Shown here: one piece after another, positions 57,735 through 64,000 of the stretch | How the letters are laid out: each line of letters starts with the position of its first letter | How positions within the stretch are numbered: the first letter of the stretch is position 1 | DNA from: Propionicimonas paludicola | GTDB taxonomy: Bacteria; Actinomycetota; Actinomycetes; Propionibacteriales; Propionibacteriaceae | Assembly: GCF_002563675.1 (NCBI RefSeq) | Contig: NZ_PDJC01000001.1 | Location: forward strand, 434,001 to 498,000 | Reading direction: 5' to 3' | Length of the DNA stretch: 64,000 bases | Position numbers and translations under genes: made by a program | Notes under the pieces: model-generated | Databases searched by the model: none | Told to the model about the DNA's origin: nothing | Seen by the model: only the letters and a program-made list of their open reading frames with translations

Positions 57735-58487
57735 TCAGCCGAGCTCGGCGACAACGGTGACCGGGGCGTCGCCCAGGTGGCCGCGCAGCACGTCCAGGTC
57801 GTCGGGGGAGCAGCTGAACAGCACGCAGCTGGACGGTCCGCCGGAGTCAGTCAGGCTCAGCCCGTGCTCGGGCCTCCAGTCGATTCGCAGGCCATCGGCC
57901 GCGGCCAACTGGGGTATCTCCCAGGCCAGGCCCTTCGAGCCGACCGGCAGTGCATCATGGACGACCCCGCTGGCCAGCGCCGCGGTGACGGCCGCCACCG
58001 AGACCTGATCGGGATGCCCGATGTAGACCTCATGGCGGGGAGCCGAGATCGGCAGCCCGGCACAGACCACCAGATCACCGGGCTGCGAGCCGCCGCCGAC
58101 CCGACGTCCGGGACGCCGCCGTCCCAGCACAGTGACGCCGATCCCGGTGGCGACGGTGGCCACGTTGTCCTCGGTGCTGCCGGTGATCGCCTCGCGGGCC
58201 ACCCCGGCCTCGGCGGCCAGCCGGCAGATCTCGGCGATCATCTGCGCGCCGAGCGGTTCCAGCTCGACACACAGATCATCGATCACCGCGATCGGCTCGG
58301 CTCCCGCACACAGCACCTCCAGGAGCGGCACCCGCAGCGCGAAGTGAGCCACCGTGGCGGCATCCGAGGCGACGGTGTCGGCCGGCTTCGGGCCGATCCC
58401 GCCGACCGAATCGGTGGCCACCACCAGGTCGTCCCCGAGTAGCAGCAGATCCCGCACGCGGCGGGCGCCCGACGAAGGTGCACTCAT
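57735..58487 (-). CDS. PurM/AIR-synthase-fold protein, possible alpha-ribazole kinase (CblS-like)
   Basis: The 250-residue protein shows an AIR-synthase-type N-terminal domain: LLGDDLVVATDSVGGIGPKP, DDLCVELEPLGAQMI and AITGSTEDNVATVATGIGVT, then a shorter C-terminal part. It resembles the PurM-superfamily group of small-molecule kinases (ThiL, CblS), not PurM itself. CblS, described in Firmicutes, phosphorylates alpha-ribazole and is encoded with an ECF S component (CblT). Linkage here to an ECF transporter favours this reading, but thiamine-phosphate kinase-like or other ATP-dependent activity is possible. It is the last gene of the operon, six bases after the ADP-ribosylglycohydrolase gene. 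Confidence 0.6.
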   Translation of the reverse strand: MSAPSSGARRVRDLLLLGDDLVVATDSVGGIGPKPADTVASDAATVAHFALRVPLLEVLCAGAEPIAVIDDLCVELEPLGAQMIAEICRLAAEAGVAREAITGSTEDNVATVATGIGVTVLGRRRPGRRVGGGSQPGDLVVCAGLPISAPRHEVYIGHPDQVSVAAVTAALASGVVHDALPVGSKGLAWEIPQLAAADGLRIDWRPEHGLSLTDSGGPSSCVLFSCSPDDLDVLRGHLGDAPVTVVAELG

Positions 58488-58493
58488 GGTCGG

Positions 58494-59489
58494 CTACCTG
58501 CGCAGCTCGACCAGCTCGGCGGCCAGGCGCTGCGGATCCAGGCCGTTGACCTCCCGCAGCTGGGCCAGCATGTCGGCCGGCACTCCCTGCAGGCCGCTCA
58601 GCGAGCCGCACATGGCCCCGGCCATGGCCCCGATGGTGTCGGTGTCGCCGCCGAGGTTGGCGGCCAGCTCGGTGGCCCGGTGCGGGTCGGCGTGGGTCCG
58701 GGCCACCAGGCCCAGTGCGGCCGGCACGCTCTCGGTGGTGGTCACCCAGGCCCCGACCAGGTCGTACAGCTGAGTGAGGAACTCCTGGTCGCTGGTCGGA
58801 CGTTCGGCCAGCTCGATGGCTAGCCGGGCCCGGGCCGAGACTGCGGCGGCCACGGTCTGCTGGCCGCGCTCCCGGCCCAGATCGGCCGCACGCATGCCGA
58901 CCTCGACCGCCTCAGCCAGGTCGGCCCCCTCGATGCCGGCCGAGATCACCCCGGCCACCAGGCAGGCGCCGCTGACCGCGACTCCGGTGTTGTGCGACAT
59001 CACGGTGGCCTCGACCACGGCGTCCACCAGGGCGTCCAGGTCGTCGGGGCGCCGGACGATGCCGATCGGCGCGATCCGCATGGCCGCACCGTTGGTCTCG
59101 CCGCCGTCGCCGGTGCTGCGCGGATCGGCACCCGAGCGCAGCAGGTCGATGGCCTTGGCCGAGCTCGGCCCCAGGAAGTTGCCGGCACTGGCGTTCACTC
59201 GGTCCGCCCAGGCCACCAGCTCACGAGCCACATCCTCGGCCCGGACCTCGCCGCCGGCATCCCGGACGGTGGCAGCCAGCATGAAGGCCTGCTGGGTGTC
59301 GTCGGTGACCTGGCCGGCCCGGAAGCCGTCCACGATCTCGTGACCGGGAGGTGCGGGGTGGAAGCCGCTCAGCCAGCCGAAGGTGTCCCGGATCTTCTGG
59401 GGAACCCACAGTTCGCCCGGCATCCCCATGGCATCGCCAAGAGCCAAGCCGGCCAGGCAGCCCGCCGCACGATCTACAACAGCACTCAT
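58494..59489 (-). CDS. ADP-ribosylglycohydrolase (ARH) family protein
   Basis: The 331-residue product has the full ARH/DraG signature set: GLALGDAMGMPGE, the metal-binding TDDTQQAF near residue 62, ETNGAAMRIAPIG near 133 and GGDTDTIGAMAGAMCG near 280. These enzymes use two Mg2+ ions to hydrolyse alpha-N-glycosidic bonds of ADP-ribosylated substrates. ATG 59489 overlaps the stop of the ECF T gene by one base (TGATG), so it is translated with a transporter. This suggests the true substrate is an imported ribosyl compound, not a protein. That is inference. Confidence 0.88.
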   Translation of the reverse strand: MSAVVDRAAGCLAGLALGDAMGMPGELWVPQKIRDTFGWLSGFHPAPPGHEIVDGFRAGQVTDDTQQAFMLAATVRDAGGEVRAEDVARELVAWADRVNASAGNFLGPSSAKAIDLLRSGADPRSTGDGGETNGAAMRIAPIGIVRRPDDLDALVDAVVEATVMSHNTGVAVSGACLVAGVISAGIEGADLAEAVEVGMRAADLGRERGQQTVAAAVSARARLAIELAERPTSDQEFLTQLYDLVGAWVTTTESVPAALGLVARTHADPHRATELAANLGGDTDTIGAMAGAMCGSLSGLQGVPADMLAQLREVNGLDPQRLAAELVELRR

Positions 59490-60259
59490 CACACAACTCC
59501 ATATCCGAGGCCGAACCGCAGCCAGCACACCACCACGAGGGTGAGCACCGCTGCCGCCAGCACCACAATGTCGACCGTACGGAACTTCAAATCACTCATC
59601 GCCGTCATCGAGTTGGTCGCCCCGTAGCCGCGGTTGGTCATTGCCACGGCCAGGTTGTCGGCCAACAGAATCGAGTTGGTGATGAGCGGCACCATGATCG
59701 GGACGAAGGACACGATCTGGCCGACCGGCCCGGTGTCCTTGATCCGCGCGCCGCGGGCCCGTTGGGCCTCGACGATCAGGTCCTTCTTGTGCACCATCGT
59801 CGGAATGAACGACAGCGCCGTGGTGACCAGGATGGACAGCCAGTAGGGCGCGTGCATCTTGGACATCACCACCAGCAGGTCATCGATCGGCGTGCTCACC
59901 GTGAAGGCATAGGTGGCCACCACCATCAGCAGGATTCGGGCCACGAAGTTCAGCCCCACCAGCAGCGCACCCAGCGTGACCGGCCAGCCCCACAGGCTGA
60001 ACAGCACCTGCGCGTTCTCCGGCAACGTGTACTGCGAGCTGGTGAACATGGTCACCGCCACGATCAGCACGAAGACCAGCAGCAGCGGTTGCAGCATGGC
60101 CCACAGCCCACCCATCGGGGTGCGCACCGCGATCAGCGCGGCCAGCAGGATCACCAGCAGAGCCAGGTTCCCCAGCGGGTGGGAGAACATGAACAGCGCG
60201 ATCATGATCACCACGAAGACGGCGATCTTGATCCGGACGTCCAGTCGCTCGAGGATCAT
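59489..60259 (-). CDS. ecfT: ECF transporter transmembrane (T) component
   Basis: The 256-residue EcfT-like protein has about five to six membrane segments and the two Ala-Arg-Gly coupling motifs region (AQRARGARIKD near residue 165), with NRGYGA later. It transmits ATPase movement to the S component. ATG 60259 overlaps the ATPase stop by four bases. The in-frame extension upstream to 60337 lies inside the ATPase gene and is rejected. Confidence 0.9.
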   Translation of the reverse strand: MILERLDVRIKIAVFVVIMIALFMFSHPLGNLALLVILLAALIAVRTPMGGLWAMLQPLLLVFVLIVAVTMFTSSQYTLPENAQVLFSLWGWPVTLGALLVGLNFVARILLMVVATYAFTVSTPIDDLLVVMSKMHAPYWLSILVTTALSFIPTMVHKKDLIVEAQRARGARIKDTGPVGQIVSFVPIMVPLITNSILLADNLAVAMTNRGYGATNSMTAMSDLKFRTVDIVVLAAAVLTLVVVCWLRFGLGYGVV

Positions 60260-61980
60260 CGGGCACCTCCGGCAAGGACGGACGCCAGATGGCGGCCGAG
60301 TTCGTACTCGTCCAGACAGGCGGTGGCCTGCGGCCACAGCCGGCGCGATAGCGCCACGGTGTCGGTCGTGGTGACCGCAGCCGCAGCCAGCACCTCGGTC
60401 TGGGCCAGGACGTCCGCAGTCGGACCGTCGGCGGCGACCAGGCCGTCGCTCATCACCACGACCCGGCGGGCGTGATGGGCCACCACATCGATGTCGTGGG
60501 TGACCATGACGATGGTGGTGCCGGCAGCGTTCAGCTCGTCGATCAGCTTCATCATTGCCTGCACCCCGGCCCAGTCCTGGCCGGTGGTCGGCTCATCGAC
60601 CACCAGGATCTGCGGACGCAGGGCCAGGATCGAGGCCACCGCGATCCGCTGCCGCTCGCCCTTGCCGAGCGAGAACGGGTGTTCGTCGCGGACGGCGCTG
60701 AGCCCGGTGAAGCCGAGCACCTCGTCGAGCCGGGCGTCGATCTCGGCCTGGGGCATGCCGACCGTCTTCATGCCGTAGGCGACCTCCTCGGCGACCGACG
60801 CGCAGAAGATCTGGTGATCCGGGTTCTGGAAGACGTAGCCCACGTGGCGGGCCAGCTCCCAGGACTGCAGCGTGGCTGCGTCCACCCCGTTGACGATCAC
60901 CTGGCCCGAGGTGGGCTGCAGGATCCGGTTCAGATGCTTGGCCAGGGTGGTCTTGCCGGCGCCATTGCGTCCGACCAGAGCCACGTACTCGCCGGCCTGG
61001 ATGCTGAGGTTCACTCCGGACAGGCCGCGATGGCCGCCGGGGTAGGTGTGCACCAGGTCATGGATCTCGATCACCGGCTGGGCGGCGTCCGACGAGGCCG
61101 CAACCTGCTCGGGGGCCGGCAGCGGACGGCCGGTGGCCAGTCTTTCGACAAGCGCCACCGCCGACTCCAGGTCGAGCGGGATCTCGTCGCGGCCGATCAG
61201 GCCTGCCCTGACCAGGTGGTCGCCCACCACGGTCAGGGGCAGCGGCTTGACCAGGTTCTCCTCGACCAACTCCAGGTTCCGGAAGAAGTCGGCCGGCACC
61301 CCCTGCCAGCTGACCTGACCGTCCTTCAGCACCACCAGCCGGTCGGCCCGGTGCACCACATCGGCGCTGGCGTGCTCGACGGCGATGATGGTGGCGTCGT
61401 CACTGTGCCGGAGCCGGTCGACGGTCGCGTAGATCTCTTCGCGGCCCTGCGGATCGAGTTCCGAGGTGGGCTCGTCCAGGCAGAGCACCTCCGGCTTCAA
61501 CGCCAGAATGCCGGCGATCGCCAGCCGCTGCTTCTGCCCGCCGGACAGCTGTGAGGTCTCCCGCTCGGCGAAGGCGCTCAGCTGCACCTGGGCCAGGCAG
61601 TCGCTCACCCGGCGGTTGATCTCCTCACGCGGGACGAGATAGTTGCGCGGCCCGAAGGCGACATCCTCGGCCACGGTGCGGCCCAGGATCTGGCTCTCCG
61701 GATCCTGCAGGACCAGACCGATGTACTCGGTGATGGTTTGCACCCGGAAGTCGCGCAGGCTGGTTCCGTCGAGGATCACCTCGCCGGTCATCGTCCCCTC
61801 CTTGAGGTGGGGAATCACACCGTTCAGCGCCATCAGCAGGGTCGACTTGCCGGCCCCGGTCTGGCCCATCACCACGGTGAAACTCCCCGCCTTCAGGCTC
61901 AACTCGATCCCGCGGAGGACGTCGGAGTCAGCTTTCGGGTAGCGATAGCTGACCCCGACCACATCCAAAGACTGCTGCAT
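60256..61980 (-). CDS. ECF transporter ATPase, fused double cassette
   Basis: The 574-residue protein is two complete ABC domains in one chain. The first has Walker A GQTGAGKST, signature QLSGGQKQRLAI and Walker B LCLDEPTSEL. The second has Walker A GRNGAGKTT near residue 325, signature-like FSLGKGERQRIAV and Walker B LVVDEPTTGQD. This EcfA-EcfA' fusion is common in dedicated actinobacterial ECF systems. It lies between the S and T genes with near-zero spacing. Confidence 0.93.
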   Translation of the reverse strand: MQQSLDVVGVSYRYPKADSDVLRGIELSLKAGSFTVVMGQTGAGKSTLLMALNGVIPHLKEGTMTGEVILDGTSLRDFRVQTITEYIGLVLQDPESQILGRTVAEDVAFGPRNYLVPREEINRRVSDCLAQVQLSAFAERETSQLSGGQKQRLAIAGILALKPEVLCLDEPTSELDPQGREEIYATVDRLRHSDDATIIAVEHASADVVHRADRLVVLKDGQVSWQGVPADFFRNLELVEENLVKPLPLTVVGDHLVRAGLIGRDEIPLDLESAVALVERLATGRPLPAPEQVAASSDAAQPVIEIHDLVHTYPGGHRGLSGVNLSIQAGEYVALVGRNGAGKTTLAKHLNRILQPTSGQVIVNGVDAATLQSWELARHVGYVFQNPDHQIFCASVAEEVAYGMKTVGMPQAEIDARLDEVLGFTGLSAVRDEHPFSLGKGERQRIAVASILALRPQILVVDEPTTGQDWAGVQAMMKLIDELNAAGTTIVMVTHDIDVVAHHARRVVVMSDGLVAADGPTADVLAQTEVLAAAAVTTTDTVALSRRLWPQATACLDEYELGRHLASVLAGGAR

Positions 61981-61984
61981 GTCG

Positions 61985-62509
61985 TCAGTTCAGGAGCTTG
62001 CTGTTGCGGACCGCGTAGTACGCGACGGCGGCAATCACCAGGTTCACGACCGAGGCGACCAGCAGCGACGGGGTGGCTGCGGCGTACATGCCCCAGCCGC
62101 CGATCGGCAGGACCACCAGGCCCAGGACGAAGCTGTTCAGGATCGAGGTGACCACGACGGCCACCACCAGCCAGATCTGGCCCTTGCGACCCAGCCAGCG
62201 GAAGGCCAGCGCGCAACCGCCCATGGCCAGCGCGACCACGATGTGGATCGGCAGGGTCAGCGGGAAGCCGACGATGGCCGAGGAGAGCAGGTGGCCGACC
62301 GCGATCACGATGAAGCCGACCCAGCCGCCGAAGCCGATGGCTGCGAAGAAGCCGGGAGCCGAGTCCAGGCCGATGGAGCCCAGCGGGCTGGGGATCTTGA
62401 TGAACGAGCCGACGGCGCTCAGGGCGATGAAGATCGCCATGATGGCCAGCTTGCGGGCAGACACCGGCGACTTTGTGGCCTGGTCCGGTGAACGATCCGA
62501 GAGGGACAT
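61985..62509 (-). CDS. ECF transporter substrate-binding (S) component, possibly CblT-like
   Basis: This 174-residue membrane protein has about five or six helices and the stretches SFIKIPSPLGSIGLDSAPGF, GHLLSSAIVGFPLTLP and GWGMYAAATPSLL. The IPSP...DSAPGF pattern reminds me of the S-component family that includes the alpha-ribazole transporter CblT of Firmicutes. I cannot confirm this without a search. Other S-component families (thiamine, riboflavin, biotin) have different signatures. It starts four bases after the kinase gene and directly precedes the ATPase gene. Confidence 0.8.
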   Translation of the reverse strand: MSLSDRSPDQATKSPVSARKLAIMAIFIALSAVGSFIKIPSPLGSIGLDSAPGFFAAIGFGGWVGFIVIAVGHLLSSAIVGFPLTLPIHIVVALAMGGCALAFRWLGRKGQIWLVVAVVVTSILNSFVLGLVVLPIGGWGMYAAATPSLLVASVVNLVIAAVAYYAVRNSKLLN

Positions 62510-62513
62510 CTTT

Positions 62514-63452
62514 CTACTCCTTTGTAGCTGTTGCGAGGAACGAGGTCAGCCCGATGAGGTCGGGTCCGGAGCGTGCGCCCAGCTGGGTGCAGGAGGCTGC
62601 CGCGACCGCATTGGCCAACCGAATGGAATCGGCCGAATCGCGACCGTCGATGAAATGGAAGTACAGGAAGGCACCGGCGAAGGCGTCGCCGGCCCCGGTG
62701 GTGTCGACCGGCGTGACCGGGTAGCCGGAGACCGTGATCCGCTCGCCCGAGCCGGATACGGCGATGGCGCCGTCGCCGCCGAGAGTGACGATGGACAGCC
62801 CGGGGCAGTGCGCGGCCAGGAAGGCCAGGCCGGTCTCGACGTCGTCGCTGCCGCACAGGTCGGTCAGCCCCTCGCGGCAGGGCAGGAAGACGGTGGCCTT
62901 GGCTGCGGCCGCCAGGACGTCCTCGCGGCTCACCCCCAGACCGGCCATGGTGCCCATGCCGACTTCCAGCCCGAAGACCACCGGCACTCCGGAGGTGGTG
63001 GCTGCGGCCAGACCGGCCAGGGCGGCGTCCCGGGGGACCAGGTCGGTGTAGAAGACCTTGGCCGTGCTGATGGTGTGCAGATCGACCTCACCCGGGGTGA
63101 GCGAGCCGAAGGCATCGCCCAGGTCGAGCAGGATGAACCGGTCGCCGGCCGCGTCCACCACCACGGTGGTGCTCAGCGAGGTGCCGCCGGGAAGCACCCG
63201 CATACCGGCGGTGTCGACTCCTTCGGCCTGCAGGCTGTCGATGATCTGGCCGCCGAGCTGGTCGTCGCCGACCTTGCCGATGTAGGCCGCGGCGGCGCCC
63301 AGCCGGGCGGCCTGGGCGATCACATTGGTGCCCGAACCGCCGGGCAGATAGCTGCGTCCGGTGACCACGGCGAAGCCGTCCGGGCCGGGCAGCCGATCCA
63401 CCTGGATCAGCACGTCCATGGCCAGGGTGCCCAGGCCGACGATGTCGCTCAC
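62514..63452 (-). CDS. PfkB/ribokinase-family carbohydrate kinase
   Basis: The 312-residue kinase has LPGGSGTNVIAQAARLG near residue 36 and the catalytic DTTGAGDAFAGAF near 250, both PfkB signatures. It could phosphorylate ribose, a nucleoside or a related sugar. Gene order places it between the regulator and the ECF S component, and its ATG overlaps the GntR stop by four bases. A ribokinase role would fit release of ribose by the ADP-ribosylglycohydrolase-family protein. Confidence 0.9.
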   Translation of the reverse strand: MSDIVGLGTLAMDVLIQVDRLPGPDGFAVVTGRSYLPGGSGTNVIAQAARLGAAAAYIGKVGDDQLGGQIIDSLQAEGVDTAGMRVLPGGTSLSTTVVVDAAGDRFILLDLGDAFGSLTPGEVDLHTISTAKVFYTDLVPRDAALAGLAAATTSGVPVVFGLEVGMGTMAGLGVSREDVLAAAAKATVFLPCREGLTDLCGSDDVETGLAFLAAHCPGLSIVTLGGDGAIAVSGSGERITVSGYPVTPVDTTGAGDAFAGAFLYFHFIDGRDSADSIRLANAVAAASCTQLGARSGPDLIGLTSFLATATKE

Positions 63453-64000
63453 GACTTCCTCCTCAACGTGATGGTGTGGTGGTAGCGGTCGGAGCGGATG
63501 ATCGTCCGGCTGTACTCGATCGGTTGTTCTGCCTTGTCAAAGCCGTGACGGGCGATCGCGAGCAGCGGCTCGCCGAGCTTCACCTCGAGCATGGCGGCCA
63601 CCTCCGCGTCCGCCTTGGCCAGGCCGAAGGTGTCCTCGGTGGTCTGGACGACCAGGTTGAAGGCGTCCTCGAGCTGGGCGTACAGCGACTCCCCGCCCAG
63701 CAGGTTGTCGATGTCGTAGCCGCGGAACAGGGCCACCGGCAGGTAGGAGACGTTGTGAGAGACCGGTGCGCCGTCGGCGGTGCGGATCCGGGGGAAGCGG
63801 ACGACCTCGACTCCGGTGGCGATCCCGAGATTGCGGGCCACCTCGGCTCCGGCCGGCACCGTGGCGAGCTCCTCGGCGCGACGCCCGGGGGTGATTCCCT
63901 GGGCCAGCATCATCTGGGTGAAGCTCATCAGGGTGGCCGGCTTCAGGCTCAGCCGCGGGGCGACCACCCGGGTGCCCATCCCGTGAATGATGGTCAGCAG
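63449..64000 (-). CDS. GntR-family (HutC/UTRA) transcriptional regulator, 5' end cut by the window edge
   Basis: The visible 184 codons end with a UTRA ligand-binding domain (FPRIRTADGAPVSHNVSYLP, GESLYAQLEDAF, EYSRTIIRSDRYH). At the right edge the frame stays open through LLTIIHGMGTRVVAPR, the typical end of a GntR winged helix, so the gene continues beyond base 64000 and the ATG at 63979 is not the start. It heads the ECF operon and probably senses a substrate or product of this pathway. Confidence 0.88.
   Translation of the reverse strand: MLTIIHGMGTRVVAPRLSLKPATLMSFTQMMLAQGITPGRRAEELATVPAGAEVARNLGIATGVEVVRFPRIRTADGAPVSHNVSYLPVALFRGYDIDNLLGGESLYAQLEDAFNLVVQTTEDTFGLAKADAEVAAMLEVKLGEPLLAIARHGFDKAEQPIEYSRTIIRSDRYHHTITLRRKS

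Follow-up and report, generated by a model that had tools for sequence, protein, structure and literature searches.

The window analysed here, a 64,000-nucleotide stretch of Propionicimonas paludicola DNA (contig NZ_PDJC01000001.1, positions 434,001 to 498,000), ends with seven minus-strand genes, which we tentatively interpret as an operon for the uptake and use of alpha-ribosides. In their order on this strand, the genes are:

63449..64000, minus strand: GntR-family regulator with a UTRA ligand domain, truncated at the end of the window (PF07702, 115 bits)
62514..63452, minus strand: PfkB-family kinase, nearest to ribokinases (PF00294, 157 bits)
61985..62509, minus strand: S component of an energy-coupling factor (ECF) transporter, CblT family (PF12822, 55 bits, over the cut-off)
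60256..61980, minus strand: fused double ECF ATPase, EcfA-EcfA' (TIGR04520, 469 bits, and TIGR04521, 447 bits, two stretches each)
59489..60259, minus strand: ECF T component of the CbiQ/EcfT type (PF02361, 79 bits)
58494..59489, minus strand: ADP-ribosylglycohydrolase (ARH)-family enzyme, YegU-like (PF03747, 207 bits against a cut-off of 26.2)
57735..58487, minus strand: PurM-fold kinase, CblS family, ARH-linked group (AIRS N-terminal domain, 25.6 bits against a cut-off of 24)

Neighboring genes overlap at GTGA (GntR/PfkB), ATGA (ATPase/T component) and TGATG (T component/ARH), and the remaining three junctions are gaps of 4-6 bases. Gene calls and family scores confirmed the strand, order, families and overlaps given in the original prediction, with a correction of detail, namely, that the most likely starts of the ARH and T component genes are 59489 and 60259, respectively. 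The complete GntR gene has 240 codons and reaches position ~64171 (locus L002). The host genome is a single contig of 3.26 Mb (98.5% complete), with one match each to the S component and to CblS, and with the operon ARH as its sole PF03747 match; the nearest named relatives found belong to the Propionibacteriaceae. Two further members of the genus (L015, L017) carry all seven genes, and a third (G001; L016 and L124) has them split over two contigs. Subsets of the operon are found in Actinopolymorpha, Brevibacillus, other Firmicutes and one archaeon. Given this recurrence, the gene order is not a product of chance.

By sequence, the S component is a homologue of CblT, the relationship that the original prediction had suspected. 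It is 35% identical over 142 amino acids to the CblT of plasmid pMF1298-5, and a profile built from nine S components, with that CblT excluded, still scores the plasmid protein at 91 bits. Of the CblS loci fetched from Firmicutes, 70 fall outside the ARH-linked group described below; this profile finds a match in 65 of them, and in 63 the match lies within 300 bp of CblS.

The PurM-fold protein, in turn, is 37% identical over 249 columns to the CblS encoded by the same plasmid. In a tblastn search of 72,556 plasmids (E 1e-3), it matched only 4 records, all from Lactobacillaceae, at ~36% identity, with 86% of the query covered (E 2e-14). In the two plasmids examined, pMF1298-5 and p47-5, the gene order is ECF S component, hypothetical protein, cobS, histidine phosphatase; the paper on strain MF1298 names the operon CblT, CblS, CobS, CobC (PMC6722938). 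The gene order in pMF1298-5 fits this naming. In pMF1298-5, the CblS gene (L041:7929-8687) carries only the annotation "hypothetical protein", and its product stays under the cut-offs of all NCBIfam models; therefore, genes of this family are easily overlooked in annotated genomes. CblS has been reported in 363 species, mostly Firmicutes (PMC6461909). The structural model of the window kinase (46 rows, pLDDT 95.7) adopts the PurM/HypE/SelD/ThiL fold, with SelD (Z 20.3, rmsd 4.1 over 233), HypE (Z 19.8, rmsd 4.1 over 230) and ThiL (3c9t; Z 18.6, rmsd 3.8 over 221) among its matches. As modelled, the shared PurM-type fold places the kinase in this superfamily and says nothing of its substrate. 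Although ThiL is among the nearest folds, we rejected a ThiL identity at the sequence level: no NCBIfam model, ThiL included, matched the protein at E 0.001, and the tree groups it with CblS. Two of the checks by which the original prediction could have been refuted, one on the S component and one on the PurM-fold protein, came out in its favor at the sequence level.

The ARH-family enzyme is closest to a protein from Escherichia coli, YegU (38% identity over 326 amino acids, gap-free, 222 bits), and among solved proteins, to MJ1187 (98 bits). The residues T63, D64, D65 and T66, along with D283, D285 and T286, which make up the TDDT and GGD.DT motifs, are invariant in all 14 aligned rows; in ARH enzymes, the conserved TDD and D.DT residues have a role that involves the metal. 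The model of the enzyme (13 rows, pLDDT 95.7) has MJ1187, DraG and ARH3 as its nearest folds, with Foldseek TM scores by query length of 0.71-0.77 for DraG and ARH3, and sequence identity of 22% and ~20%, respectively. The protein scores far under the DraG equivalog cut-off (TIGR02662, 75 against 337 bits) and likewise far under that for Tri1. Mammalian ARH1 and ARH3 hydrolyse alpha-NAD+ but not beta-NAD+ (PMC9738213), a specificity that makes an alpha-N-riboside, such as alpha-ribazole, a chemically sensible target for an ARH enzyme, and we propose that the operon ARH is an alpha-riboside or alpha-ribotide hydrolase. With ARH3 and DraG, it has in common the fold and the TDD and D.DT motifs, and alpha-specific cleavage would be the shared chemistry; unlike these enzymes, it is encoded in an operon with an importer, and there is no ADP-ribosyltransferase among the seven genes.

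The Firmicutes search yielded a CblS match in 100 of 398 genomes; we fetched the loci of 79 of these (80 loci), plus that of G492 (L039), and looked for CobS and CobT in 25 of the 100 genomes (G492 and the 24 next best-scoring ones). In an unrooted tree of 95 CblS-family rows, from which a split open reading frame of G005, interrupted by a run of N, was excluded, the window CblS belongs to a group of 24 rows (support 100/96). This group holds all 11 loci that combine an ECF transporter with ARH, as well as the 3 ARH loci without an ECF transporter nearby. Overall, an ARH gene lies on the same strand within 6.5 kb of CblS in 14 of the 24 rows, from both Actinomycetota and Firmicutes. Within the group, the loci with both ECF and ARH do not form a single clade: their distribution calls for 9 changes, and 31 of 500 shuffles required as few.

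Together, these observations lead us to favor, at a little under an even chance, the interpretation that the seven genes form an alpha-riboside uptake-and-use operon; we infer its substrate, activities, direction, order of steps and regulation. The S component of the CblT family, together with the EcfAA'T motor of the operon, would import an alpha-N-riboside, most likely alpha-ribazole or the riboside of a related base, and the CblS-family kinase would phosphorylate its 5'-OH. The resulting alpha-ribotide could meet one of two fates. CobS could join it to a corrinoid, a reaction that the window genome might need, or the YegU-type ARH could hydrolyse the alpha-N-glycosidic bond, releasing the free base and ribose-5-phosphate. 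Alternatively, ARH might act first, on the unphosphorylated riboside, with PfkB then converting the ribose to ribose-5-phosphate. We favor the kinase-first order because the ribose of ADP-ribose, on which the known ARH substrates are built, carries a 5'-phosphate. The GntR-UTRA protein would gate the expression of the operon. Such a scheme resembles the logic of pseudouridine breakdown by psuK and psuG, in which a kinase and a ribotide glycosidase yield the base and ribose-5-phosphate, with other enzyme families and another glycosidic bond involved. A natural source of the substrate exists, given that CbiR releases alpha-ribazole from cobalamin (PMC7733943). Judging from the genes, these cells probably degrade alpha-ribosides as well as using them.

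The content of CobS, CobT and CobU in the respective genomes bears on the first of these fates. The window genome encodes CobU and CobS (PF02654 over its cut-off, the NCBIfam CobS models under theirs), and there is no match to CobT, the bypass of CobT by a CobB-type sirtuin not having been looked for. In a genome of this type, CobU- and CobS-positive and CobT-negative, the CblS-like kinase is a good candidate for the supply of alpha-ribazole phosphate. That CblS can stand in for CobT is illustrated by L. coryniformis, in which cblT and cblS are reported to be present and cobT to be absent (PMC8123684). A CblS-like gene is present in 10 of 96 relatives, all 10 of which encode CobS; CobS is also present in 66 of the 86 relatives without a CblS-like gene, and the association is not significant (p 0.11). 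The gene is found in 3 of the 4 relatives with CobS and without CobT compared with 7 of the 72 that have both (Fisher p 0.006, with no correction for kinship). Two genomes were dropped from these counts, G037, with a weak CblS match (E 3.5e-4), and G030, with CobS under the cut-off.

Across the 23 genomes of the ARH-linked group, the pattern is mixed. Six encode CobS without CobT (G000, G010, G126, G257, G492, G597), and seven lack both (G363, G542, G616, G673, G698, G736, G858). Because G542, G616, G673 and G698 are close kin, these seven amount to about four lineages; for genomes reached through their loci, completeness is not told. Among the Firmicutes, CobS is present in 4 of the 10 group genomes compared with 14 of the 15 other tested CblS holders (p 0.007, the lineages being non-independent). 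In the seven genomes without CobS and CobT, the product must have another use; thus, for some members of the group, cobamide assembly by CobS cannot be the destination of the imported riboside. Five of the seven, all Firmicutes (G542, G616, G673, G736, G858), have the genes in the order S-CblS-A-T-ARH.

This distribution raises the possibility, which we rate as clearly less than even, that the operon is a catabolic pathway, in which the CblS-like kinase makes an alpha-ribotide and the YegU-type ARH hydrolyses it to the base and ribose-5-phosphate, with or without cobamide synthesis alongside. This bacterial branch of ARH enzymes, with E. coli YegU among them, would then have a role in small-molecule metabolism. 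A locus on a Firmicutes contig (L037:4844-10643) has the order GntR-PfkB-S-A-T-ARH and lacks an adjacent CblS, and its genome (G491) yielded neither a CobS nor a CobT match; this arrangement is possibly a purely catabolic form. As for the original prediction, the part that concerned import and phosphorylation of an alpha-riboside is supported by homology, and the destination in cobalamin is plausible for the window genome, though not for the whole group; for the ARH and PfkB branch, the support is that of conservation. The combined salvage and degradation idea survives, its degradation half stronger than expected and its cobalamin half plausible for those genomes that have CobS and lack CobT.

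Several observations weigh against the favored reading. ARH enzymes with known activity act on ADP-ribose compounds. For the mammalian enzymes, this activity is described in the same source as the cleavage of alpha-NAD+ (PMC9738213). CobS and CobT occur together in 10 of the 23 group genomes, and according to one account (PMC9503650), alpha-ribazole phosphate can be made by a CobB-type sirtuin in the absence of CobT, so that the absence of CobT is no proof of need. The survey of neighborhoods, proposed in the original prediction as a check for a cobalamin context, was negative in the ARH-linked group: no cob genes were detected near CblS, on either strand, in any of the 24 group rows, compared with 28 of the 71 rows outside the group, as judged by homology to a few query proteins. 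In these labels, "CobT" stands for CobT or CobS, one of the two "CobT" queries (from L070) being CobS, which leaves the union of cob genes unaffected. No Rfam family scored above its gathering threshold in the 64-kb window and, accordingly, no B12 riboswitch was found. The S component of the window also scores above the threshold of the Pfam riboflavin-S family (PF07155, 43 against 26.7 bits), yet the matches of the S profile to solved S components are weak (29 bits for riboflavin S, 24 bits for folate S), and we consider a vitamin family other than CblT unlikely. Finally, the favored reading offers no reason for a cell to make use of alpha-ribazole and also to destroy it.

A rival explanation is plain salvage of alpha-ribazole for cobamides, as in Listeria and lactobacilli, with ARH and PfkB as passengers or acting on unrelated substrates, for example, an ADP-ribosylated protein. 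The likeness to the Firmicutes CblT/CblS system comprises the homologous S component and PurM-fold kinase and a genome with CobS and CobU and without CobT. Variants of the same family without ARH and PfkB also fit: S-A-T-CblS without ARH is found in G044, G050 and G005, and at L036, S-A-T is accompanied by CblS on the opposite strand, again with no ARH, arrangements that count against our favored scheme as well. In addition, the CblS-like gene of G041 shares a strand with a FecCD/BtuC-like ABC transporter (BtuC model under its cut-off). The window operon differs from the salvage system in having its own EcfAA'T motor, the GntR-UTRA regulator, ARH and PfkB, and in that its CblS falls in a separate group with no cob genes detected alongside, cob clustering being typical of the salvage system though not universal. 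The proximity of ARH to CblS in 14 of 24 group rows from two phyla, the five S-CblS-A-T-ARH genomes that have neither CobS nor CobT, and the lack of detected cob neighbors in the group speak against plain salvage, which we consider unlikely.

Still less likely, in our estimate, is that the kinases of the ARH-linked group are general kinases for beta-nucleosides or pseudouridine, and that the operon is another nucleoside catabolic cluster. Nucleoside-related genes do lie beside some group members, and thus, the kinase of this group may act on other nucleosides, a further point against alpha-ribosides: IU nucleoside hydrolases at L123 and L131, PF04227 (PsuG-type) proteins at L123 and L142, and Bmp-type ABC systems, which are implicated in nucleoside transport, at L123, L131 and L142. 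However, only a minority of the group has such neighborhoods, the transporter of the window resembles CblT and not the Bmp systems, and the specificity of ARH1 and ARH3 is for alpha linkages (PMC9738213). The L142 locus (L142:2962-10514) contains the second CblS-like gene of G616, together with the Bmp-type ABC genes, the PF04227 protein and a protein resembling ribose-1,5-bisphosphate isomerase (TIGR00511, 248 bits, under the cut-off), the last of these also being in keeping with nucleoside catabolism. At the same time, L123 and L142 show the pairing of a kinase of this group with a glycosidase, the hydrolase being a different one.

Outside the window, ~1.2 kb upstream of GntR and on the same strand, there are genes for a nicotinamidase-like protein (model score under its cut-off) and a nicotinate phosphoribosyltransferase (L002:11390-13602). 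Neither was matched in the fetched stretches around the operons of relatives, some of which end 1.5 kb upstream of GntR, and we rejected NAD salvage from these pncA/pncB neighbors as a conserved context. The least probable explanation that we considered, namely, that the substrate is nicotinamide alpha-riboside or another NAD breakdown product, from which ARH removes nicotinamide while the kinases handle the ribose, such that alpha-NAD debris is repaired or salvaged, would accord with these two genes and with the cleavage of alpha-NAD+ by ARH1 and ARH3 (PMC9738213), but not with the absence of matches to them in the stretches fetched from relatives or with the kinship of the S component and kinase to CblT and CblS.

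The best NCBIfam match of the PfkB kinase is the ribokinase model TIGR02152 (124 bits, under the cut-off of 299.65), and its best match in the PDB is a ribokinase (4x8f, 92 bits). The gene is present in the genus of the window and in the Firmicutes locus L037; it was not detected in Actinopolymorpha, Brevibacillus or the seven Firmicutes loci of the tree group that contain ARH. Thus, PfkB is an accessory gene. GntR adjoins the operon in L015, L017, L019, L036 and L037, and a more distant relative does so in L039.

The favored alpha-riboside reading, if true, has several implications. Alpha-ribosides are released from cobamides, as in the CbiR reaction (PMC7733943), and can also arise from NAD; in searches of the open-access literature, we found no paper linking ARH, CblS and an ECF transporter, and no dedicated route for alpha-riboside breakdown turned up. 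If the operon is such a route, it would explain how a genome without CobT, such as this one, can finish its cobamide, and what use the five Firmicutes genomes with S-CblS-A-T-ARH, and with neither CobS nor CobT, have for the imported compound. Furthermore, YegU-type ARH proteins would gain a directly testable class of substrates. This would include E. coli yegTUV/yegW (the GgaR regulon), the function of which is unsettled (PMC10819704) and in which, as in the window, a putative nucleoside transporter is clustered with a GntR-type regulator, an ARH and a kinase of the PfkB family. The two clusters differ in that the transporter is of the ECF type in the window and a putative nucleoside symporter in E. 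coli; YegV is only 21% identical to the window PfkB, and of the 15 features annotated in the 14-kb yegTUV stretch, none is a PurM-fold product.

Two further loci contain parts of these systems. In a Methanohalarchaeum archaeon (L040:9977-14505), an S component of the same family is followed by EcfA, EcfT and then PfkB, with no CblS or ARH following; in the genome of this archaeon (G493), CobS was matched and CobT was not. In G041 (L120:2912-6399), the genes on one strand with the CblS-like gene encode a FecCD/BtuC-like permease and a binding protein, a hint at a corrinoid link, and the CblS-like gene adjoins thiD- and thiM-like genes; the E. coli yegTUV/yegW cluster (L043:822-7302) likewise adjoins thiD and thiM.

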